Source of the DNA: an uncultured Methanobrevibacter sp.
GTDB lineage: Archaea; Methanobacteriota; Methanobacteria; Methanobacteriales; Methanobacteriaceae
DNA length: 64,000 nucleotides
Direction: 5' to 3'
Assembly (NCBI RefSeq): GCF_947170395.1
Contig: NZ_CAMVTE010000005.1
Span: 1-64,000 of the forward strand
Shown here: positions 49,718-63,739 of the stretch, piece by piece
How positions within the stretch are numbered: the stretch's first letter is position 1
Layout of the letters: each line of letters starts with the position of its first letter
Translations under genes and position numbers: made by a program
The notes under the pieces: model-generated
Database searches by the model: none
What the model was told of the DNA's origin: nothing
Seen by the model: only the letters and a program-made list of their open reading frames with translations

Positions 49718-50530
49718 TTATCCTCCACCCGGAATGGTATATTTATCGTTTACTCCGTAAAATATTCCATTTCCTTTTCGTTTTTCACTTACATTTAATA
49801 ATGCATTATTGAATATTATGTTTAATAATTTATATCCGTCCTTGTCAATTAAATCTGTTAATTGAGAATTATTTTCTCTTAAACTCAAAGCATCCTTTTC
49901 AATTCCAAAACAGGCTCCATATAATATTTGCATTGAATTTTCCTCAACGGACTGCGGAGGATACTTTTCGCTCAGGTCTTTTGATTTTAAATAATTCTGG
50001 AAGCTTTTCCATTCCTTTTTAATCTCCTTTCCCTTGCTTGTCAATTTGGAGTTTTCCAGGATATCTTTATAGTTTTCACCATCGTATCCGTTTTCATTTT
50101 TAAGGGCTTTGATGAATTCCTCGAAGTCTTTTTCGAATTTATTGGCAACTGAAGTGTTGTTGGTTTGTTTTGCCATAGCTTTTAAGTTGAATTTTTTATT
50201 TTTGTTCATGTTTTTAAGCAGGTTAATGGCTAATGTTTCTGAAGTCTTTAACTCACCTTTGTTTGCTATTCTGAGAGTTATTTTCTTCATTACTTCCATA
50301 TCTTGTGGGGTTAGCTTTTTGCCCACTTCATATGAGTCATCCAATTCGATATCGCATTTGATTTGGCCTTCATTGATCAAATCAAGTACTGTAAGCGATA
50401 ATGCATTAACGCCTAACTTATCGTTTTTTGAAAACAGTATGGATGTCATAGGGTATGAATCATCACTAGGAGGATTTTTAATTGTTTCGTTAACTTGATT
50501 TTTACTGTTTAAACCTAACATGCTGCTCAA
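49718..50530 (-). CDS. Hypothetical, resembles the cytoplasmic C-terminal part of DUF2207-type proteins
   Basis: ALSLTVLDLINEGQIKCDIE...LTPQDMEVMKK; no TM in this ORF; PGGG C-terminus. Confidence 0.5.
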   Translation of the reverse strand: MSSMLGLNSKNQVNETIKNPPSDDSYPMTSILFSKNDKLGVNALSLTVLDLINEGQIKCDIELDDSYEVGKKLTPQDMEVMKKITLRIANKGELKTSETLAINLLKNMNKNKKFNLKAMAKQTNNTSVANKFEKDFEEFIKALKNENGYDGENYKDILENSKLTSKGKEIKKEWKSFQNYLKSKDLSEKYPPQSVEENSMQILYGACFGIEKDALSLRENNSQLTDLIDKDGYKLLNIIFNNALLNVSEKRKGNGIFYGVNDKYTIPGGG

Positions 50531-50914: not shown

Positions 50915-52639
50915 TTAATTTTTAATTATGATTACTGTACTGTTTAAACCCAATACTCTTGAGTAATCAATCTTATCTGCAATTTTATTCAAAACACTTA
51001 TGTTGTCGAATTCCAAATTGTCATTTTCAATTACTGGATTGAAGTCAACTCCGGTGTCCTTAATTGAAATCAAAATATTGTCATCATCATTTCTAACGAT
51101 AATATCGATTGTATCAACGCTTTCGTTAGTGTTAATGATATTCACAAGCATTTCTTCAATGGCCAGTGTGACTAAAGTTGCTGACTTGTTTCCGGACAGA
51201 TACTCCTGAACTTCACGGGACAGATTAACTGCCTCCTTAATATCGCCGTTAATCGTATGCTCAAAGACATTATCGTCTTTGTGTTTGTTAATGAAAAATC
51301 CTGCATATTCTCCGTCTGTTTTCTTGTTGAAGTATCTTGAATAGGCAAAAATAAACAATATTGTAATTGCCTCAGCAATTGCAAATGAAATCCAAATTCC
51401 ATTTCCACCAATTGCAAATGACAGTACGAATGCCAAACCGATTGGCAATACAAATCCTTCAAGCAGTGAAATAATTGTGGATAACTGATTTTTCTGAATG
51501 GCCTGTGCATAGAAAGTATATAAAAATGTAATGGCTGTTCCAACATAACTTACTGCAAATATCCTGATTGCATTCAATACAACAGGGATGTCGGATGGAT
51601 CTTTAACATTATACAGGAGCAGTAAGGATTGCGGACAAACAATAAATAAAACTGACAAGGCCAAACTTGCAACAACTACGATCTTTAAAGACCGATTAAT
51701 AATGTAGTTTACGCCTGAAAAATCTTCTTCCTTAAAGTAAACAGATACAATTGGAGACATTGTCTGTGCAGTTCCGATTAAGAATATATACAATATAAAT
51801 AAACTGTTATAACAAATACCAAAAGCAACAATACCTGATTTTCCAATATACATGCCTAAAAGAATGTTAATAATGAATAATTTTAAAGTCAGGTATAATT
51901 GGGTTGATGAGGATGAAAAACCGGATTTCACGATTTTTTTTAGATAATCAAATAATGCATTCAATTTCATTTTTATAAATCTTAATGTACGTTCTGATTT
52001 AAAGAAATAGTATGAGATGATTATTGAACCTACAGCATATCCTGTTGAAGTAGCTAGTGCAGCGCCTGAAAGTCCCATGCCAACAAATTTGATGTAAATA
52101 ATATCGCAGCAGATATTAACAATATTGGCTATCAGTATAGCTCTAAATGGCAATGTTGGAATACCATCTGCTCTTATAAAGTAAGATAAACTCATCATAT
52201 AACATAAAAAAGGCATTCCAATAATCAATGCAATGAAGTATTGATTGACACTAGAAGTTAAACTGGGTTGTGAGATACACAATAGTTGTGAAATATTATT
52301 TGAAAAGAGCAATCCGATAACCGTAATCAATATTCCTATTGATAAAAGAGACGTAATGGCCACCGAAAAGTAACTGTTACTTTTCTCGTCATCGAATTCC
52401 GCTTTTGCAACAGAACAGAGTACGCTTCCTCCCAATCCAATCATCCAGTAGATAAGATTAACAAAGGTAATGACTGGAGCCACACTCTGAATAGGAGCCA
52501 GATTTCCGGCTCCAATTAGAAAGCTTACAATCAAACCATCTACAAACAGACAGATATTGCCCGCCATTGATGTGAATAAGGTTGGAAGAAAAAATTCCTT
52601 AAATTTTCTTCTTAACAAATTATAGTTTCTCTCATACAT
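50915..52639 (-). CDS. MATE-family efflux protein fused to a C-terminal RsbW-like HATPase domain
   Basis: 12-TM MatE architecture; C-terminal LAIEEMLVNIINTNES...IKDTGVDFNPVIENDN. Confidence 0.85.
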   Translation of the reverse strand: MYERNYNLLRRKFKEFFLPTLFTSMAGNICLFVDGLIVSFLIGAGNLAPIQSVAPVITFVNLIYWMIGLGGSVLCSVAKAEFDDEKSNSYFSVAITSLLSIGILITVIGLLFSNNISQLLCISQPSLTSSVNQYFIALIIGMPFLCYMMSLSYFIRADGIPTLPFRAILIANIVNICCDIIYIKFVGMGLSGAALATSTGYAVGSIIISYYFFKSERTLRFIKMKLNALFDYLKKIVKSGFSSSSTQLYLTLKLFIINILLGMYIGKSGIVAFGICYNSLFILYIFLIGTAQTMSPIVSVYFKEEDFSGVNYIINRSLKIVVVASLALSVLFIVCPQSLLLLYNVKDPSDIPVVLNAIRIFAVSYVGTAITFLYTFYAQAIQKNQLSTIISLLEGFVLPIGLAFVLSFAIGGNGIWISFAIAEAITILFIFAYSRYFNKKTDGEYAGFFINKHKDDNVFEHTINGDIKEAVNLSREVQEYLSGNKSATLVTLAIEEMLVNIINTNESVDTIDIIVRNDDDNILISIKDTGVDFNPVIENDNLEFDNISVLNKIADKIDYSRVLGLNSTVIIIKN

Positions 52640-52650
52640 TCTTTTAACCT

Positions 52651-55600
52651 CTAAACACTAAAGAAATCTAAATCATCCAGGAATTTAACAAAATTGTAAA
52701 TGTATTCTTCAGATATGAACGGCCATTTGATACCTAAACGGTACAAAGCCTGGACAGTATAAGTATTGTCAACGGGCATCCAAATCTTTTTAACTTTACC
52801 GGAACCGATGGATGTGATTAAACCGGATACACCTTCCTGTTTAGATTTATCTGCAAGTGCATCATCTAATGCATTTTGATAATCGTCTTCCTCACAAGGT
52901 TCAATATCTAATCCCAATGGTTTTATAATGTCGATTATGTCTCCAAAGCAAATGCTATGGTGGTCGTAAGGATGGAATACAGTACATTCCTTAGGTGTTT
53001 TTGATAGGTTTACAATAGCCTTTGCAGTCATATCAATTGGGGAGAATTCCACATTATTCATTAGCATAGAATAAGGCATTTTTCCAATAGTCACAAATGC
53101 CTTTAAACGATTGATGAATCCGTTTGATTCAAAGTTAATTTGGAATTCACTGTCTGAGCTTCTGGCCATCAAGTTTCCAACCCTCATGATTTTCACGTCC
53201 AAATCATCGTTCACTGCAGCTTCCAATACAGCACGTTCGGCTAAAAATTTGGAACTGAGATACTGGTTGTCTACAGCCTGACCTATAAACAGATCGTTTT
53301 CGGTAAATTTAACATCAACAGGAGGATAATTGTTTATGCTTTCACCGGCAATACTGTATGTTGAAACCTGCACATATTTCGCATTTTTCATCTTTGCAAA
53401 TTTAAGTCCATTTATCACTCCTCCAAGGTTAATGTCTTCAATATCGGTTCCTGAAGAAAAGTGTTTCACATTAGCTGCACAGTTAACTACTGCATCAATC
53501 TTTTCAGAAACAAGTTTTTCAAAGTCTTCGAAGTTTGTAATGTCTCCTTCAATAATATGGAGCCTTTCGCCAAACAGATTTTCATATTCATCGGAGAAGT
53601 AATAGAATAACAGAGATTTTAATCTTTCCTCTCCGCTTAAAACTTTATTTGCTCTAATAAAACAGTAAATATCGCCAGTTTCATTTTCCAGCAATTCTCT
53701 CAGGACATGTATTCCTAAAAATCCTGTAGCTCCGGTTAGCAGAACATTGCCAAGACTATCTTGTATTTCACCATTTAGGATTGTTTCAAGATTATTCTTC
53801 TTAAGCAAGTCATTAATTTGAGAATAATCATATGACAGCTCTGATTTCTTCTCCAATGTTTCATCAGATAAAATAAACTCTGATAATGCTCTTGGAGTTG
53901 GATTTGAAAATACATCTCCATAATTCAGGTTATAGTTATGGTTTAAGGCTTCCATTGTAATTTTTGTAACAAGCAGGGATGTTCCGCCTATCTCAAAGAA
54001 ACTGTCAGTGGCGCTTACTTCATCAAGCCCTAAAATTTCAGCAAATAAGTTTGCAAAGAATGCTTCAACGTCATTTTCAGGAGCAACATATTCAGTAATT
54101 AAAACAGGTTCGGGCAAGTTTCTCAAATCGGTTTTGCCGTTAACGGTTTGAGGCATTTCATCAAGTTCCATATAGACTGTTGGAACCATATAATATACCA
54201 GTTTTTCAGCAAGTGATGCTTTCAAATCTTCGATATCAATCGAATATCCGTTTTCTTCACGATTTTCATCTTTATAATCATCGTGAACTGTGAAATAAGC
54301 ACATAAATGGTCGTTGCCTTTAATTTTTTTAACAACCACTGCAACAGATTTGATTCCAGGATATTTTGAAAGACCTACTTCAATTTCACCAATTTCTATT
54401 CTCAAACCTCTGAGTTTAATCTGGTTGTCCATTCTTCCGAATACATAATAGTCGCCGTCTTCAGTAACTTTAACAAAGTCTCCAGAACGGTAGAATCTGA
54501 TTCCATTAATTACTTCATAGGCTTCTGCATTTTTCTCAGGACGGTTTAGATATTCTCTTGAAACACCTTTTCCTGCAATATATAGTTCCCCAATGACATT
54601 TGGAGGTAATGGATTTGAATCAAAGTCCATAACCTTTTCATGAACATTGAACAGTTCCTTTCCGATATGGATATCTGAACTTTCAAGCAACTGACCGTTA
54701 CAATACACTGTAGTTTCGGTTGGACCGTACATGTTGAATAGTTTTCCATTTGAATTTTCACTGAGCAGTTCATATAACCTTTGGGAGAACGGTTCTCCTG
54801 CATGGATATATACTTTAAATCCGTACATTGTTTCTTGCATTGCTTCAATTTCCAGATACTGGAGCAGACGTGAAGGGGTTGCAATGTAAACATTGGCTCC
54901 GCTTCTGTGAATCAAATCCATCATTTCAATCGGATCTTTGTATTCCATATCATTGGCAAATACCATAGGAACTCCATTCAATAGGGAACCCATCAGTTCT
55001 TGCTGGAACACATCAAAAGCGACAGTTGTTGTGGATAAAACCTTATAATCTTCTTTTTCAAGATTGTGTACCAATTCATAGGTACAGACATTTCTTGGGT
55101 CAGGATATACAAAGTTTGCAATGTTTCCGTGCTCAAGGATAACTCCTTTAGGAAGTCCTGTTGAACCTGAAGTGTAGATAAGGTAAGCCATGTTGTTGGC
55201 ATGCACGTCCGGATTAGGATTTGAAGTGTCTTCATGCTTAAGCAGTTCATTGACATCCAATAGGTTTTCAGAATACTCACTTAAATCAATGCATTTTTTC
55301 TCAATTACATCATCCACAATAATGAATTTGGATTCACTGTCGGTCAGGACATGTTCAATTCTTTCAGAAGGATATTCTGAGTCAACCGGAATGAATGCGG
55401 CGCCGGATTTTAAAATACCGAATATGGATGCAATCACATTACTGTTCCTATTCAATATGAACATTACTCTGTCTTCAGGACCGACACCTTTTTCGATAAG
55501 GCTGTGGGCAATTCTATTGGCTTTCTTGTTTAATTCATCATAAGTGAATTCACCGTCAGTGGCATATAGGATAATCCTGTCGGGGTGCAATTCCACCTGA

Positions 55601-58600
55601 TTTTCAAATATCTTATTCAGCCTGTCTTCTGGAATTTCATCATATTCCAAATCATCAACGCCCCAATCATCATTTTCAATGATTGAAATATCCTTCATCA
55701 AGGTATTTTCATCGAATGTTTGGAACTTGTTTAAGACAATGCGGATACAATCAAGGAAAGTATCAATTAAAGTATCGGAGTACAATTGATCGTTGTATTC
55801 ACAGAAAATTCTGTATTGGTTATCTACTTCAACCACATTTAGACTTATTTTAAATTTCAATCCATCATAATCAAGTGATTGTCTTTCAACGTTCATTCCA
55901 CCGATTTCAATATCTTCAATGATTTTTCCATGATATGCATATAATATCTCAGGTGTGATGTCGAATTCATTTGAAATTTCAGTTAATGGATATGAAGAGT
56001 AAGCCAATACATTCAGCCATTCACCGTTAACATATTCGAAGTATTCATTAATAGTCAAATCAGAATTTAACTTTAAAGCTAAAGGTAGGGTTTTAACCAT
56101 CATGGCAAGTGTTTTTTGTTGGTTTGGATTGAACCGGCCATTTGTAATTGTTGCAATCAATGTATCTCTTTTATAAACAAATTTGTTTAAAACAAAAGAA
56201 GTTGCAGCAAGGAATAAATTATTTTGGCTGATGTTTGATTTTAAACAGAATTCGTCAATAGCTTCTTTATCCAAGAAAATATCCTCAACTGCGGCTTTGC
56301 CTTGAGATTCATCACCATTGATGTCCTGTGCGATTACTGTTGCATCATCAAATTCTTTGATTTTGTTAGAGAAAAATAACTCGGATTCTTTGTACAGGCT
56401 TGATTGTTCTATTTTGATTTCGTTCAATGAATATTCAAATCCATCAAGTTCTTCAAGTTCATAATCCTTGCCATCGTAGATTTTAGCAATTTCATCAAAT
56501 AATATGTTAAGTGAAGTTCCGTCAACGATAATATGGTGGAAATCAGCCAGAAGCATGGAATCTCCAACTATTTTGAATCTAAAGAGAGGTCCTTCTTCCA
56601 GTTTGAATGGCTGTACAAATTCATCCAAATCAACTTCCCCGACCATTTCAATCATGTCATCGACTTTCAAGTTATCCCTTCTCTGCTGGTAAACTTCTCC
56701 GTTTTCCATTACAATTCTTGTCTTTAAATAAGGGTGATTATCAATCGCTTTATTTATTGATGACTTTAGCCTTTCAGCATCGATACCTTCATCGAATTCC
56801 ATTTTCTTTGGAAGGTTGTATGCAGTGTTTTCCGGGTCTTTGATACAGTCAAAGTAAACTCCAAGCTGATTTGAAGTCAATGGATATAATTCTTGGATAT
56901 CTCCTTTTTCGTCATCGGCAATGTTGATTTCAGAAGCTATCTTCTCAATTGTCTTATAGCTTAGGATTTCTGTAACGTTCATTTGAGCGTTCAGATTGTT
57001 GTAAATTGCTGAAGTCAATTTAATTACTGACAGTGAAGTCAATCCTATGCTGAATAAATCAGTATTTACACCAAACTCATCAATACCTAAAATTTCAGAA
57101 ACCATGTTGAACAGTTCTTTTTCAATATCTGTTCTTGGTTTTATGAATTCATCGACATCAATTTCAGGATCGGGCAAGTTTTTAAAGTCTGTTTTTCCAT
57201 TTGGTGTTTTTGGGAATTCTTCAAGTTGTGTGAAATATGATGGCACCATATATTCAGGCAATGAATCGGTCAGGTGCTGTTTTAAGTCGTCCATATCAAT
57301 GGCTGCAGTTGCTGTGAAATAAGCGCATAAATGTTCAATGGAATTGATTTTTTTAACCACGACTTTTGAGAGAGTGACATTTTCATAGTTTGCAAGGGAT
57401 CCTTCGATTTCTGACAGTTCTATTCTCAAACCTCTGAGTTTGATTTGAGTGTCGTTACGTCCCAATACATATAACTCTCCATCATAGTCTTTTTTACCTA
57501 AATCTCCAGTGTTATAGTAGGCAATATTATTTAATTGCATGAATACCTTTTCAGTCTGTTCTGGATTGTTCAAATATCCTCTGGCTATTCCTGCACCACC
57601 TACATAGATTTCACCGGATGCATATGGAGGTAACTGATTTCCGTCAATATCCATAACCTTATCCACCACATTCAGCATTTTCCATCCTGCAGTAACTTTA
57701 GGAGAATCAATTAGTTTATAATGTGATGCTATTGTTACTTCTGTCGGTCCGTATGAGTTGTAGATATCTGCTGTAGTGTATTTTGACAGTCTGTCAAATA
57801 GTACTGGTGGGAATCCTTCACCTCCCACAACAATAACATTGCAGTTGCCGACAACTTCCTGAATCTCTTCTAACTGCAGGTATTCAAGCAGCCTTGTCGG
57901 TGTTGAACCGAAACCTTCTGCATCACTTGTTTTGAATAGTTCAACCAATTGCAAAGGATCAATGGCCTGTTCATCATTAGCGAACACTACAGGCAGACCA
58001 TTCAATATTGTACCAAAGATTTCCCTTAAAAATACAATGAATGAAACAGTGGAAATTGAAATGAACTTATTGCACTTATGATTCAGCTCGTAAATCGGAA
58101 CATTTTCTTCTACATTGGCAATATAGTTTGAAATTCCCATATGGGTAATCATCACGCCTTTTGGTTTTCCGGTTGAACCTGAAGTGTAAATCAAGAAACA
58201 TAAATTGTCAGGGGTCAAATCAACATCCGGGTTGGAATCATCATCTTCACTAAGAAGTTCGTCAACATTGATTCTGTTTGAGCCGTCATAATCAATTTCA
58301 GATGAGGTGATGACAAATTTGGAATCACTGTCTTCAAGGATTTGGTTGATTCTGTTTTTCGGATAATTAGGGTCGATTGGAATGAATGCCGCTCCAGCTT
58401 TGATGATACCAAAAACAGCAGCAATCAAATCGCTGTTTCTTCTCATCATAAACATTACTCTGTCTTCAACATCGACTCCTCTTTTGATTAAAGCGTTAGC
58501 AATCTTATTTGCTTTTTTGTTTAGCTCATCATAAGTCAAATCACCGTCTTCTGCATAGAGAATTGTTTTATCCGGATTTTCAATAGCGATGTTTTCAAAT

Positions 58601-60465
58601 ATTCTGTTTATAATTCCTTCGTTTGCAAGTTTAATTTCAAAGTCTTCATCCAATTCCAAAGTCTCACAGATGGAAATATCTTTAAGTAATTCGTCCTCTG
58701 ATGAGAACTTGTCAAATAAAACATCCATTGCCTTAAGGAATTCATCCATCAGTTCTTTTGAATAGAATGATTCATCATAGCTAATGTTAATCTTACCGCT
58801 TTCAAAATTGAATACCAGCTTATAGTCTTTGACATCATACTCATCTTCAAAGAATAATATTTCACTTTCAAAGTCTAATTTTTGATTGTTTAAAAGCGGA
58901 TAATTCTTATATTCTTCAAATGATTGTTTGAAATCATCCAAAAACTCACGAACAGAAAGGTCGGTGTTAAAGTGATATCCTGCCGCAACACGATTGTATG
59001 CAATCAGAATGTCTTTTGAAAATGAGAATTTGACTAGATTAAATAAGAATGTTGCAAGCAATAGCTTTTCTTTTGATAAACGGTATTGATTGGCAAGATT
59101 TTTTAATTTATCGATGTCTATTGGTTTTGATATAATTTTATAGTTTACTTCATCACCGCTCACGTCAGGTGAAATGGCGGTTGGATTATCAAATGAGTTG
59201 ATTAGATTATTGTAGTAATTTTCTGCCTTGAAAAACTCAACTACATTAACATCATAATCCCTGCATTTTTTAGATGAATCTTTACTGACTTGTTTTACCA
59301 AACTTTTAAGTCCTGAAGCCATTGCATCTATTTCATTTGAGCTGAAACAGGATTTGTCATATTCTATAAATATTGATTGCAATCCTTTTTCATCCGAATA
59401 GTTCTTGTTTATTCTGAAGTGAAGTGGGAATTTGATGTCCTTTTGTAGTGTTAGGAATTTTGAATCATAATCTGTGGAATTTGAAACAATTGAAATCATG
59501 GAAATGCAATCAGGATCAATTCCGACATTTCTCAAATCTGTTGTGTACTCACTGAACTGCAGTTTTGCATGAGATAAACCCTCTTTTAAAACGGATTTTG
59601 AATATTCAAGCAATTCCTCAAATGTTAAATCCTCATCATATTCAAGTCTTAATGGAATTGTGTTTACAAACATTCCAAGTGCATCATCCTGATTAAAGTA
59701 TCTTCCGTGAACGGAGGTATTCAGTACAATGTCTTTAAACTGTTCATTGTCTTTTTTGGATTTTGAAAGGTATAAAAAATTAAGTGCCAATGCTGTGACA
59801 AAAGGGGAATATCCCAAATCTGGGGCATTATCCAAAAGGACTTCAAAGTATCCAAGTTGTGAATCATCAAATGAATACCAATCCTGTGAATAATCCTTTA
59901 ATGTATCAAGCCAATATTTCTTATCATCACTGGCTTCATTTGATTTCAAATAATCCAATTCAGCATTTACATATGTTTCATATGAATAATCTATTGGGAC
60001 ATATTCGGCATTGTTTTTTTGAGCTTCAATGTATTTTTCAATTTCCCTTGGAACGATTGAATAAAGTGAAGTTCCATCAAGCAGTATATGCTGGACAACA
60101 CCAATAAGAATGCATGATGAATCATTTTTTAAAATGGCCCATTTGTATAGTGGGCAATCAAAGACATCGTCAAAGGGGTTTTCCAGATAATCTTTGATAA
60201 ATTCATCAATGTTATCTGAAACATCGAATGTTTCAACATTCACTTCTCCATCAGCATAATATTGTTTAAAGTCCCCTGACTCATCATGTTTAATTTGCAA
60301 ATTCAAATAATTCCGGCAAATAAATTCAACAGCTATTTTTACATTTTCAAAATCCTCTAAATCATAATCTTTTCTAAATTTCAGATAAAATGAGTCATTG
60401 TGAGGATTATTTATTTCAGAAAACAGCAACATTTTCTGAGACGAAGATAAATCAAATAAATTCAT
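52651..60465 (-). CDS. Non-ribosomal peptide synthetase, C-A-T-C-A-T-thioester reductase (2604 aa)
   Basis: C1 QHILLDG; A1 LIYTSGSTGKPKGVMITH, NSYGPTEVT; T1 DLFSIGLTSL; C2 FHHIIVDG; A2 LIYTSGSTGLPKGVILEH, NMYGPTETT; T2 FFEIGGTSL; reductase LTGATGFLGIHVLREL...YLSSKFLAE. Confidence 0.97.
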   Translation of the reverse strand: MNLFDLSSSQKMLLFSEINNPHNDSFYLKFRKDYDLEDFENVKIAVEFICRNYLNLQIKHDESGDFKQYYADGEVNVETFDVSDNIDEFIKDYLENPFDDVFDCPLYKWAILKNDSSCILIGVVQHILLDGTSLYSIVPREIEKYIEAQKNNAEYVPIDYSYETYVNAELDYLKSNEASDDKKYWLDTLKDYSQDWYSFDDSQLGYFEVLLDNAPDLGYSPFVTALALNFLYLSKSKKDNEQFKDIVLNTSVHGRYFNQDDALGMFVNTIPLRLEYDEDLTFEELLEYSKSVLKEGLSHAKLQFSEYTTDLRNVGIDPDCISMISIVSNSTDYDSKFLTLQKDIKFPLHFRINKNYSDEKGLQSIFIEYDKSCFSSNEIDAMASGLKSLVKQVSKDSSKKCRDYDVNVVEFFKAENYYNNLINSFDNPTAISPDVSGDEVNYKIISKPIDIDKLKNLANQYRLSKEKLLLATFLFNLVKFSFSKDILIAYNRVAAGYHFNTDLSVREFLDDFKQSFEEYKNYPLLNNQKLDFESEILFFEDEYDVKDYKLVFNFESGKINISYDESFYSKELMDEFLKAMDVLFDKFSSEDELLKDISICETLELDEDFEIKLANEGIINRIFENIAIENPDKTILYAEDGDLTYDELNKKANKIANALIKRGVDVEDRVMFMMRRNSDLIAAVFGIIKAGAAFIPIDPNYPKNRINQILEDSDSKFVITSSEIDYDGSNRINVDELLSEDDDSNPDVDLTPDNLCFLIYTSGSTGKPKGVMITHMGISNYIANVEENVPIYELNHKCNKFISISTVSFIVFLREIFGTILNGLPVVFANDEQAIDPLQLVELFKTSDAEGFGSTPTRLLEYLQLEEIQEVVGNCNVIVVGGEGFPPVLFDRLSKYTTADIYNSYGPTEVTIASHYKLIDSPKVTAGWKMLNVVDKVMDIDGNQLPPYASGEIYVGGAGIARGYLNNPEQTEKVFMQLNNIAYYNTGDLGKKDYDGELYVLGRNDTQIKLRGLRIELSEIEGSLANYENVTLSKVVVKKINSIEHLCAYFTATAAIDMDDLKQHLTDSLPEYMVPSYFTQLEEFPKTPNGKTDFKNLPDPEIDVDEFIKPRTDIEKELFNMVSEILGIDEFGVNTDLFSIGLTSLSVIKLTSAIYNNLNAQMNVTEILSYKTIEKIASEINIADDEKGDIQELYPLTSNQLGVYFDCIKDPENTAYNLPKKMEFDEGIDAERLKSSINKAIDNHPYLKTRIVMENGEVYQQRRDNLKVDDMIEMVGEVDLDEFVQPFKLEEGPLFRFKIVGDSMLLADFHHIIVDGTSLNILFDEIAKIYDGKDYELEELDGFEYSLNEIKIEQSSLYKESELFFSNKIKEFDDATVIAQDINGDESQGKAAVEDIFLDKEAIDEFCLKSNISQNNLFLAATSFVLNKFVYKRDTLIATITNGRFNPNQQKTLAMMVKTLPLALKLNSDLTINEYFEYVNGEWLNVLAYSSYPLTEISNEFDITPEILYAYHGKIIEDIEIGGMNVERQSLDYDGLKFKISLNVVEVDNQYRIFCEYNDQLYSDTLIDTFLDCIRIVLNKFQTFDENTLMKDISIIENDDWGVDDLEYDEIPEDRLNKIFENQVELHPDRIILYATDGEFTYDELNKKANRIAHSLIEKGVGPEDRVMFILNRNSNVIASIFGILKSGAAFIPVDSEYPSERIEHVLTDSESKFIIVDDVIEKKCIDLSEYSENLLDVNELLKHEDTSNPNPDVHANNMAYLIYTSGSTGLPKGVILEHGNIANFVYPDPRNVCTYELVHNLEKEDYKVLSTTTVAFDVFQQELMGSLLNGVPMVFANDMEYKDPIEMMDLIHRSGANVYIATPSRLLQYLEIEAMQETMYGFKVYIHAGEPFSQRLYELLSENSNGKLFNMYGPTETTVYCNGQLLESSDIHIGKELFNVHEKVMDFDSNPLPPNVIGELYIAGKGVSREYLNRPEKNAEAYEVINGIRFYRSGDFVKVTEDGDYYVFGRMDNQIKLRGLRIEIGEIEVGLSKYPGIKSVAVVVKKIKGNDHLCAYFTVHDDYKDENREENGYSIDIEDLKASLAEKLVYYMVPTVYMELDEMPQTVNGKTDLRNLPEPVLITEYVAPENDVEAFFANLFAEILGLDEVSATDSFFEIGGTSLLVTKITMEALNHNYNLNYGDVFSNPTPRALSEFILSDETLEKKSELSYDYSQINDLLKKNNLETILNGEIQDSLGNVLLTGATGFLGIHVLRELLENETGDIYCFIRANKVLSGEERLKSLLFYYFSDEYENLFGERLHIIEGDITNFEDFEKLVSEKIDAVVNCAANVKHFSSGTDIEDINLGGVINGLKFAKMKNAKYVQVSTYSIAGESINNYPPVDVKFTENDLFIGQAVDNQYLSSKFLAERAVLEAAVNDDLDVKIMRVGNLMARSSDSEFQINFESNGFINRLKAFVTIGKMPYSMLMNNVEFSPIDMTAKAIVNLSKTPKECTVFHPYDHHSICFGDIIDIIKPLGLDIEPCEEDDYQNALDDALADKSKQEGVSGLITSIGSGKVKKIWMPVDNTYTVQALYRLGIKWPFISEEYIYNFVKFLDDLDFFSV

Positions 60466-60556: not shown

Positions 60557-60865
60557 GTGATTATCATGAATATTATTAAAAATTATGATGAAAAAGAATT
60601 AACATTATCTGTTGAGGGCCGTATTGATACAATTACTTCCCAAGAGTTGGATAATGAAATCAATGAAGAGTTAGGTAATTTTGATTCATTAATAATGGAT
60701 TTCACTGATTTGGAATACATTTCAAGTGCTGGTCTTAGAGTTTTAATTGCAACCCAAAAGAAATTAAAAGAAGATGATGTTCCATTCGTTATTAAAAATG
60801 TTAATGATGCAGTCGGTGAAATATTCAGAATGTCCGGTTTTGACAAAATTCTTAAGATAGAATGA
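60557..60865 (+). CDS. STAS-domain anti-sigma-factor-antagonist-like protein (RsbV/SpoIIAA type)
   Basis: LSVEGRIDTITSQELDNEI...LIMDFTDLEYISSAGLRVLIATQKKLK. Confidence 0.94.
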   Translation: MIIMNIIKNYDEKELTLSVEGRIDTITSQELDNEINEELGNFDSLIMDFTDLEYISSAGLRVLIATQKKLKEDDVPFVIKNVNDAVGEIFRMSGFDKILKIE

Positions 60866-61239
60866 ATTCAATAACTTTAAAACCAGAATTGACAGAATTA
60901 TATGTTTTAAATGAGTTTATTTTAAATGAACTTCCCGAAGAAAATCTTCAAGTCAATTTCATTGTTGAAGAAATATTCGTCAATATAGTCCATTACTCAA
61001 ATACAGAATTCATTACAGTTAATGTTGAATATGAAAATCCATCATTGATTTTGGAGTTTATTGACAACGGAATAGAATTCAATCCTCTTTTAAAAGAAAA
61101 TCCAGATCTTCCTGACAGTATTGATGATGCTCAAATTGGAGGTTTGGGCATTTTTTTAACTAAAGAAATAGCTGATGAACTTGATTACCATTATATAAAT
61201 GGTGAAAATCACTTGAAAATAATTAAAAAAGTGGAATGA
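60862..61239 (+). CDS. RsbW/SpoIIAB-like HATPase serine kinase
   Basis: NFIVEEIFVNIVHYS (N box), FIDNGIEFNP (G1), IGGLGIFLTKEIAD (G2); ATGA overlap with STAS. Confidence 0.92.
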   Translation: MNSITLKPELTELYVLNEFILNELPEENLQVNFIVEEIFVNIVHYSNTEFITVNVEYENPSLILEFIDNGIEFNPLLKENPDLPDSIDDAQIGGLGIFLTKEIADELDYHYINGENHLKIIKKVE

Positions 61240-63110
61240 TGAAATCTAAACTGAAAAAAATAGCAATATCATTTATATTAATGATAATGGTCCATTATGC
61301 GCTTTCTCCAGATATATTTTGGAACCTTGGGATACAAAGTCCTCATGTGGGATTATTATTTGTTTTAGGATTGTTATTGGGACCTTATGGCGCTTTAGGT
61401 GCAGTATCAGCAAATATTATACTGGATTTATTGGATGGATTTACACTTATTGAAATGCTTCCTTCAGCTATTTTTACTTTTGGAATTTCCTATTTGGCAT
61501 ACAAACTTTGGTATTCCGGCTTTAGAACTGATAAAATTACAAAACCTGCATTAGATAACATGTACCATCTCGGTATGTTTTCATTAATCATGATAATATG
61601 CGGACTTATATATTCTGTAGTGCATGGGAATTTAATGGGATTTATTATCGGCTCTGAAATAGACGAATTTATTTCCGTCGTTTATTTTATGAACTTTATT
61701 AATATAGGATTTATCTTTGGAATACTATTCATTTGGATTTCCAAAAAAATCGATTTTATAGAAACTCCAAAAACATCCAAAAAGAAAGTTAACAAAAAGT
61801 TATATCAAATATTATTTTGTTCATTAATGATTGTAACCATTTTCACAGCAATTTCCTTTGTCATGGATGTAAATGAAAACATTCTGCTTGGGGAACTGAT
61901 ACTGACTGGAATTTTATTATTCGGTTATCTGACAAAACCTTTTACATATGAAATTCAGCCAAATGTTGAAAATACAATAACCGAAAAGATTATAAAAAAT
62001 TTTCTCCTGATAACATTAGTAATTGCCGTTATGGGACTGGCAATTTCTTTTTTAAGTATTAATTTTATATCTCACATTGATAATGGCAACATCTACTTAA
62101 TTTTAATGCCCGCACTTATCCTAACTGATACAATCATAATTTTATTCTTTATTCCAGGACTCCTGATTTTAAGATATATTGAAAATAAGGTAATGAAACC
62201 GATTTTGGCATTTTCTGAAATCGAAGGATTCATTAATGAAAATGAAAAAATAGAAAGTGAAGGTTTGGTGGAAATTTATTCCAAATATCTCAATGAGCAA
62301 AATGAAATCGGAACACTCGCCTTTTCATACACCGAACTGATTAAACACAACAATAATTATATTGAGAATATCCATAAAATTGAAGGTGAAAAGGAGCGTA
62401 TAAAAGCTGAGCTTGATATTGCAACAAAAATTCAGGCCGCAAACTTGCCAACCGAATCAATCAAAACTGAAGATTTTAAAGTTAATGGTTATTCCCAACC
62501 TGCAAGAGAAGTCGGAGGAGACTTCTTTGACTATTACATGATTGATGAGGATAATTTGGCTATTGTGATTGGAGATGCATCAGGTAAAGGAGTTCCAGCA
62601 GCAATTATTGCAATGATTACTCAGGTGATAATCAAACAGATATTATATCATTATCAAGATCCGTCAAAAGTTTTACGCCTGCTCAACAATCAGCTGTGTG
62701 AAAAAAACTCCGAATCAATGTTTTTAACATTGTGGCTTGGAATCTACAACCGAACAACTAAAAAATTAACATTTTCAAATGCAGGACACAATCCGCCATT
62801 AATAAAAGAAAATAGTAAATTTAAATATTTGGATATTGATACTGGAATCGTCTTAGGAATTATGGAAGACTTTGACTATGTATTGGAAGAGATTATTCTG
62901 GAAGATGAAATAGTATTATATACTGACGGAATAACTGATGCAAACAATGAAGATGATGAAATGTACGGTGAGGACAGACTTTTAAACTTCTTCAACGAAT
63001 TTGAAAGTGAAAACGACCCAATCAGACCGTTATTAAAGAACATCCATAATTTTACTCGCGATGCAGAACAGTTTGATGATATGACATTATTGTATTTAAG
63101 GATAAAATGA
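61236..63110 (+). CDS. Membrane-bound SpoIIE/RsbU-type PP2C phosphatase
   Basis: N-terminal multi-TM; AREVGGDFFDYYMIDEDNLAIVIGDASGKGVPAA...FSNAGHNPPLI...VLYTDGITDANN. Confidence 0.94.
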   Translation: MMKSKLKKIAISFILMIMVHYALSPDIFWNLGIQSPHVGLLFVLGLLLGPYGALGAVSANIILDLLDGFTLIEMLPSAIFTFGISYLAYKLWYSGFRTDKITKPALDNMYHLGMFSLIMIICGLIYSVVHGNLMGFIIGSEIDEFISVVYFMNFINIGFIFGILFIWISKKIDFIETPKTSKKKVNKKLYQILFCSLMIVTIFTAISFVMDVNENILLGELILTGILLFGYLTKPFTYEIQPNVENTITEKIIKNFLLITLVIAVMGLAISFLSINFISHIDNGNIYLILMPALILTDTIIILFFIPGLLILRYIENKVMKPILAFSEIEGFINENEKIESEGLVEIYSKYLNEQNEIGTLAFSYTELIKHNNNYIENIHKIEGEKERIKAELDIATKIQAANLPTESIKTEDFKVNGYSQPAREVGGDFFDYYMIDEDNLAIVIGDASGKGVPAAIIAMITQVIIKQILYHYQDPSKVLRLLNNQLCEKNSESMFLTLWLGIYNRTTKKLTFSNAGHNPPLIKENSKFKYLDIDTGIVLGIMEDFDYVLEEIILEDEIVLYTDGITDANNEDDEMYGEDRLLNFFNEFESENDPIRPLLKNIHNFTRDAEQFDDMTLLYLRIK

Positions 63111-63739
63111 TTAGGTTAGCTTATTGCAATGTTGATGATTTGGATTTGAAAAAAGCTTATGGACTGGTTTCTAAAACTCGCCAGGAAAAAATTGATTTTT
63201 ACAGGTTTGAAAAGGATAAAAAGCTTAGTTGTGGCGTATATCTTCTTTTAAAAAAGCTATTGTCTGAGGAAAACATTACTGATCCTATCTTCAAATTCGA
63301 AAAATACGGCAAGGCATACATATCCAATCATGAAAACATTCATTTTAATTTAAGCCATTCCGGTAAAGTGGTTTTGTGCGCAATATCCGATAGGAATGTT
63401 GGCGTTGATGTCGAATATATTGACCGTAAAATTGATTTAAACATAGCCAAGCATTACTTCTACAACAGCGAATATAAAACTATCATGAATGCTGAAAACA
63501 GGCCGGAGAAATTTTTTGAATACTGGGTTTTAAAGGAAAGCTATATGAAATACACAGGCCTTGGAATGAATTTAAAACTGGACAGTTTTGAAATAATAAT
63601 TGAAGATAAAATAAGGCTTAAAAACGATGATGAAAATTTAAAGTTTAACTTATTTGACATTGAAAACTATAAAATCGGAATTGCCGGGCATTATGATTCT
63701 GTTGATTTAATTGAATATGATGTCGGGCAATTGTATTGA
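63107..63739 (+). CDS. 4'-phosphopantetheinyl transferase, Sfp type
   Basis: NVGVDVEYIDRKID...FFEYWVLKESYMKYTGLGM. Confidence 0.94.
   Translation: MIRLAYCNVDDLDLKKAYGLVSKTRQEKIDFYRFEKDKKLSCGVYLLLKKLLSEENITDPIFKFEKYGKAYISNHENIHFNLSHSGKVVLCAISDRNVGVDVEYIDRKIDLNIAKHYFYNSEYKTIMNAENRPEKFFEYWVLKESYMKYTGLGMNLKLDSFEIIIEDKIRLKNDDENLKFNLFDIENYKIGIAGHYDSVDLIEYDVGQLY

Follow-up and report, generated by a model that had tools for sequence, protein, structure and literature searches.

A MATE exporter with a degenerate RsbW-like domain as candidate target of a partner switch in a gut methanogen

Genes of the locus

The host of the analysed DNA, an uncultured Methanobrevibacter sp., is a methane-producing gut archaeon with a MATE exporter beside peptide-making genes. 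Within the window, which denotes the whole stretch of 64,000 nucleotides under study, the exporter gene (50915..52639, minus strand; assigned from its ORF and Pfam matches) encodes a protein of 574 amino acids with a C-terminal RsbW-like pseudo-HATPase. It lies directly downstream of the gene for a two-module NRPS that ends in a reductase-like domain (52651..60465, minus strand), an assignment based on the sequence and on the same gene order in related loci. Situated on the plus strand are genes for a single-domain STAS protein with the phospho-acceptor-like motif YISSAGL (60557..60865; PF01740, E=5e-16), a separate RsbW-like kinase in which the N, G1 and GGLG boxes are intact (60862..61239; PF13581, E=4e-14), a SpoIIE-type PP2C phosphatase, which is a membrane protein (61236..63110; PF07228, E=4e-45), and a 4'-phosphopantetheinyl transferase (63107..63739; PF01648, E=5e-15), which would be expected to activate the NRPS. 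STAS protein, GHKL kinase and PP2C phosphatase together make up a partner-switch module at 60557-63110. Downstream of the MATE gene, two ORFs overlap on opposite strands (49718-50530, minus strand, 270 aa; 50109-50498, plus strand, 129 aa), of which the longer minus-strand ORF is likely to be the true gene.

The membrane part of the MATE protein (residues 1-437) displays 12 hydrophobic segments at residues 29-432 and matches the MatE domain PF01554 in two stretches (Pfam, E=1e-21). Its even-numbered loops are positively charged, so that, following the positive-inside rule, both the N- and the C-terminus are predicted to be cytoplasmic.

Fold and nucleotide motifs of the C-terminal tail

Profiles and the predicted fold assign the C-terminal tail of the MATE protein (residues ~438-574; 50918..51328, minus strand) to the SpoIIAB/RsbW fold. 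Its folded core, residues ~459-574 (50918-51265, minus strand), comprises the last ~116 residues and is, by this prediction, a GHKL domain of the RsbW/SpoIIAB type. The original prediction had placed an N box and a G1 box in the tail by comparison with the separate kinase, and the peptides quoted for this are all present in the ORFs at 50915-52639 (minus strand) and 60862-61239 (plus strand). The RsbW-like character that it ascribed to the tail proved better than chance: Pfam HATPase_c_2 matches residues 484-541 with E=6.6e-4 (20.1 bits, not reaching the gathering cut-off of 27.4), a profile of separate RsbW-like kinases recovers the window tail genome-wide with E=8.3e-7, and 20 tails compared with 8 kinases, profile against profile, give E=4.6e-8 at a probability of 95%. 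Bacterial relatives of the same architecture clear the HATPase_c_2 cut-off with 66, 65.5, 52, 35 and 32 bits. A search of plasmids returned matches to the MATE part only and none to the tail.

Structure prediction had been proposed as a check of the GHKL assignment. The AlphaFold (AF2) model of the tail, built on a 52-row alignment in which some of the tails are bacterial and clearly descend from kinases, reaches a pLDDT of 84.7 and a pTM of 0.75 and shows the characteristic GHKL/HATPase_c_2 fold of the RsbW-SpoIIAB type, with the lid region among its least confident parts (pLDDT ~64). The best 18 PDB matches of the model are all anti-sigma-kinase chains, namely SpoIIAB, RsbW, UsfX and relatives (E 7e-7 to 1.5e-4; rmsd 3-4 Å), and the top match has an E of 7.3e-7 and TM of 0.69/0.73, in agreement with the proposed assignment. 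Many of these chains were solved in complex with their STAS partner. Searching PDB sequences with the tail profile gave nothing relevant; the matches come from fold comparison alone.

In a joint alignment of tails and kinases, the N box of the window tail (LAIEEMLVNIIN; 51131..51166, minus strand) keeps E496 and N500, and the G1 box (KDTGVDFNP; 51035..51061, minus strand) keeps D528 and G530. The N-box Glu/Asn and the G1 DxG of an active RsbW-type STAS kinase are hence present, and residual nucleotide binding is possible. Where the end of the ATP lid and the G2 box are expected, the tail carries EFDNISVLNKIADKIDY (50963..51013, minus strand), with a lid of ~9 residues and without GGxG, whereas the lid of the separate kinase comprises ~17 residues and terminates in GGLG. 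All of Glu, Asn, Asp, Gly and GGxG are intact in 33 of 36 distinct kinase domains. Among 100 archaeal tails GGxG is found in none, the lid mostly has 9 residues, and Glu is retained by 66 of them, Asn by 63, Asp by 72 and Gly by 99. The absence of GxGxG-like glycines from the G2/lid segment, noted originally for the single tail, is matched by the loss of GGxG in all 100 archaeal tails compared; the description of the tail as degenerate holds for the lid and the glycine loop and requires refinement for E496, N500, D528 and G530, which are all still in place.

In certain tail subgroups, mostly beside NRPS or ATP-grasp genes, the N-box and G1 residues are lost as well. The best-conserved stretch of the tail, YSRVLGLNSTVI (50930..50965, minus strand), as judged from the alignment and dN/dS, persists as LGFN or LGLN even in the most decayed tails. 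The model of the most decayed subgroup, from which nearly all nucleotide residues are gone, still adopts the SpoIIAB fold, as predicted from an alignment whose less decayed rows lend it support.

Across 32 orthologues of the MATE protein, tail and membrane domain show practically the same dN/dS (0.089 and 0.086, respectively), and residues 545-572 of the tail have a lower value of 0.046; with dS close to saturation, these ratios are approximate. For comparison, the kinase gives 0.169 and the STAS protein 0.156, in sets drawn from genomes differing from those of the MATE set. The near-identical values of tail and membrane domain indicate that the tail is maintained under strong purifying selection and rule out a decaying appendage. 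The matching predicted fold and the lost lid and GGxG bear out the initial reading of the tail as a degenerate RsbW-like GHKL domain.

Distribution and evolution of tailed MATE proteins

The host genome encodes two MATE proteins with the tail and seven further MATE matches without it. The two single-domain STAS genes of the genome, its two intact RsbW-like STAS kinases (one of which is fused to a GH3 enzyme) and the three SpoIIE genes found in it all lie beside the two tailed MATE genes. The second cluster (C18) consists of two SpoIIE genes, a tailed MATE, STAS and a gene joining a GH3 enzyme to an intact RsbW-like kinase (L009:7737-9872, 711 aa), a fusion also seen in L087, L088 and L089. Elsewhere in the host (C64) lies a 422-aa protein that has a STAS domain at its C-terminus and whose N-terminal part matches no Pfam family (L193:2408-3676).

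Within the genus Methanobrevibacter, 50 of 67 genomes contain a tailed MATE, and 48 of these 50 also contain a separate intact kinase. SpoIIE is found in 49/50 genomes with and 3/17 without a tailed MATE (Fisher p=1e-10, uncorrected for relatedness). The only exception among the 50 is G059, which has neither SpoIIE nor the kinase and in which the tailed MATE is broken. Tailed MATEs are also present in other genera of the Methanobacteriaceae, whose tails were read directly in L100-L119, and NRPS, tailed MATE, STAS, kinase and SpoIIE are collinear in three of them (L100, L108, L119). In L115 the set is present from the MATE onward, and in L116 no STAS was detected. In L109:8818-10553 (G091), beside an NRPS gene, the tailed MATE is split within the tail into two frames by an apparent frameshift. 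A ~565-aa ATP-grasp enzyme takes the place of the NRPS beside the tailed MATE at L062:7128-8816 and in L056, L059, L060, L064, L065, L066 and L113, the family being called on L062 itself, by similarity in L113 and by size and position in the remaining loci. ATP-grasp enzymes are a second amide-bond-forming partner of tailed MATE genes.

Tailed MATEs without SpoIIE occur in G079 and G080, which have very degenerate tails, in G104 and in the less complete genomes G097-G099. Conversely, switch genes without a tailed MATE are observed in G026, as a SpoIIE-STAS-kinase locus that also encodes GH3 enzymes and ABC exporters, in G039, with a like-scoring kinase and SpoIIE, and in G056, with a STAS-kinase-SpoIIE-PPTase locus and no MATE nearby. 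The G026 locus is a partner-switch locus of natural-product-like type and reads SpoIIE, STAS, GH3, RimK-like ATP-grasp, two ABC exporter subunits, GH3 and kinase (L191:3798-14298). Tail and switch are strongly, though not obligatorily, coupled.

When 85,462 species genomes were scanned, this architecture also turned up in Lachnospiraceae, Ruminococcus, Blautia schinkii, Anaerofilum, Synergistaceae and Thermacetogenium. The archaeal NRPS clusters are thought to be bacterial in origin and resemble clusters of Firmicutes (PMC8241843); the bacterial tailed MATEs found here agree with such an origin. The tails of Blautia and Thermacetogenium carry GGLG and exceed the Pfam cut-off with 66 bits, and DxA replaces DxG in their G1 box. 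In an even sample of the class Clostridia, full-length tailed MATEs were present in 23 of 388 genomes (6%). SpoIIE or STAS genes lie within ~9 kb in 13/20 clostridial tailed loci versus 0/20 tail-less MATE loci (p=1e-5), the latter drawn from four genomes and not throughout from those of the tailed loci; the other 7/20 tailed loci have no switch gene within this distance. A survey of MATE-HATPase fusions for linkage to SpoIIE/STAS genes had been suggested along with the original prediction, and the link now appears in Clostridia as well as in the genus.

Two bacterial-labelled records were discounted as evidence, since the tail of L170 is 83% identical to that of the window and the tail of L171 almost identical to that of the Ruminococcus MAG L164, both probably reflecting mis-binning. 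A fusion peculiar to a strain or genus was rejected in view of its occurrence across Methanobacteriaceae and in Clostridia, and contamination as source of the archaeal copies in view of collinear loci in many genomes of the family. Other domain combinations can be observed near clostridial tailed MATEs, namely ~530-aa chains that combine STAS at the N-terminus with an RsbW-like kinase at the C-terminus (L227:10952-12541, L237:12702-14309); fusions of SpoIIE with an RsbW-like kinase lie beside or near tailed MATE and STAS genes (L223:10505-12436, L226:16066-18915, L167:2788-5169).

A quick tree built from the membrane part of MATE proteins unites the 41 tailed proteins sampled in one group (SH-aLRT 96), with tail-less bacterial MATEs thinly sampled and several long branches. 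The intact tails constitute one of separate branches inside this group, and the tree fits one fusion event that may have been followed by stepwise loss of the ATP motifs. A restriction of intact tails to cases without a separate kinase was rejected, given that Blautia (L173) and Anaerofilum (L172, nearly intact) possess both.

Putative role of the tail in a partner switch

The fused tail domain is real, conserved and widespread. Partner switches are usually known as controls of gene expression, and either their kinase or their STAS protein needs a target, which in Bacillus is a sigma factor. In the host genome (assembly ~89% complete), sigma-70 region 2 (PF04542) has no match at E<=1, so that the canonical sigma-factor output of the module is not detectable and a post-translational, non-transcriptional output would make sense. 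The tail probably serves as a pseudokinase dock for the unphosphorylated STAS protein, through which export of the NRPS product would be gated. The docking of STAS is favoured because the tail, predicted to be cytoplasmic, has a fold of STAS-binding type, is maintained by selection, is missing elements of a canonical kinase and is linked to the switch. We infer STAS binding by the tail, its lack of kinase activity, and a gating, of either sign, of the presumed cargo.

According to this model, the tail would be a cytoplasmic pseudokinase, descended from an RsbW/SpoIIAB-type STAS kinase, that forms the output port of the switch. The membrane phosphatase SpoIIE would sense a signal and dephosphorylate the STAS protein, which in this form could dock on the MATE tail and also on the true kinase. 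Rephosphorylation by the true kinase would then release it. Docking would gate export of the NRPS product, which would be set post-translationally and without a sigma factor. The independent second cluster of the host (C18) supports the model; the tailed MATEs without SpoIIE, the switch loci without tailed MATE (G026, G039, G056), the 7/20 clostridial tailed loci lacking a nearby switch gene and the nucleotide-site residues retained in the window tail count against it.

Both SpoIIAB and RsbW form dimers; the tail could instead be a tethered pseudo-protomer which recruits or silences the true kinase at the exporter, with STAS involved indirectly. Tail and kinase share fold and ancestry, the best-conserved part of the tail is the C-terminal strand region and not the nucleotide pocket, and most tails in the genus are accompanied by a separate intact kinase. 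However, no separate kinase gene lies nearby in Thermacetogenium L179 and Lachnospiraceae L169, and we regard such a heterodimer as rather unlikely. That the tail itself phosphorylates STAS despite its non-canonical lid is highly improbable, since the lid is ~8 residues shorter and the glycine loop is gone in 100/100 archaeal tails and whole subgroups keep the domain while N-box and G1 residues have vanished, even though E496, N500, D528 and G530 are kept in the window group and both N box and G2 loop are intact in bacterial relatives (Blautia L173, Thermacetogenium L179).

The tail might also be a structural or oligomerisation domain of the MATE, left from an ancestral regulatory fusion whose tie to STAS was lost. 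Its persistence in the SpoIIE-less genomes G079, G080 and G104 and the predicted fold of the most decayed group, kept despite loss of nearly all nucleotide residues, agree with such a remnant; it is made quite improbable by how strongly tail and switch co-occur and are linked elsewhere, and by the coincidence of a broken tailed MATE with a missing switch in G059. For the docking reading in its widest form the balance is about even: a transporter class under direct partner-switch control would have arisen by a single kinase-MATE fusion, remained catalytic in some Clostridia and become a pseudokinase dock in methanogens and rumen bacteria, with secretion of peptide-like products gated by SpoIIE/STAS, also in sigma-less archaea.

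A phosphorylation switch may thus act directly on an exporter, which names a candidate, testable target for a sigma-type partner switch in an archaeon without detectable sigma-70 factors. The model predicts that a STAS protein can switch a transporter via a pseudokinase domain. Moreover, a single transporter family carries kinase domains that range from intact ones to fully decayed ones, so that pseudokinase evolution can be traced, and tailed MATEs flag clusters for natural products (NRPS, ATP-grasp, GH3), in rumen methanogens as well as gut Clostridia, in which export may be under this kind of control.

The locus resembles the RsbU-RsbV-RsbW and SpoIIE-SpoIIAA-SpoIIAB systems in that PP2C phosphatase, STAS protein and GHKL kinase stand side by side and the tail shares the kinase fold. 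It differs from them in having no detectable sigma factor and a degenerate second kinase-like domain fused to an exporter. Similar gene content has been described for the NRPS cluster mru0066-0071 of M. ruminantium M1, comprising NRPS, MatE, an anti-sigma factor antagonist (STAS) and serine phosphatases, for which the available text of the report proposes environment sensing, control of NRPS expression and product export as separate functions and does not mention a fused HATPase tail (Leahy et al. 2010, PMC2812497). A literature search covering sources outside subscription journals found no description of a MATE-HATPase fusion, and among the NCBIfam models matched none spans both MATE and tail. 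STAS-type phosphorylation with biofilm rather than a sigma factor as output is found in SypA/SypE of Vibrio fischeri (PMC10120452) and SiaABC of Pseudomonas aeruginosa (PMC7647112), neither of which is a transporter with a kinase-like domain. STAS domains control the ABC transporter MlaFEDB, through MlaB (PMC7367683), and SLC26/SulP transporters (PMC8256260). There the STAS domain is bound or fused to the transporter, whereas the transporter of the window carries a domain of the STAS-partner type instead.
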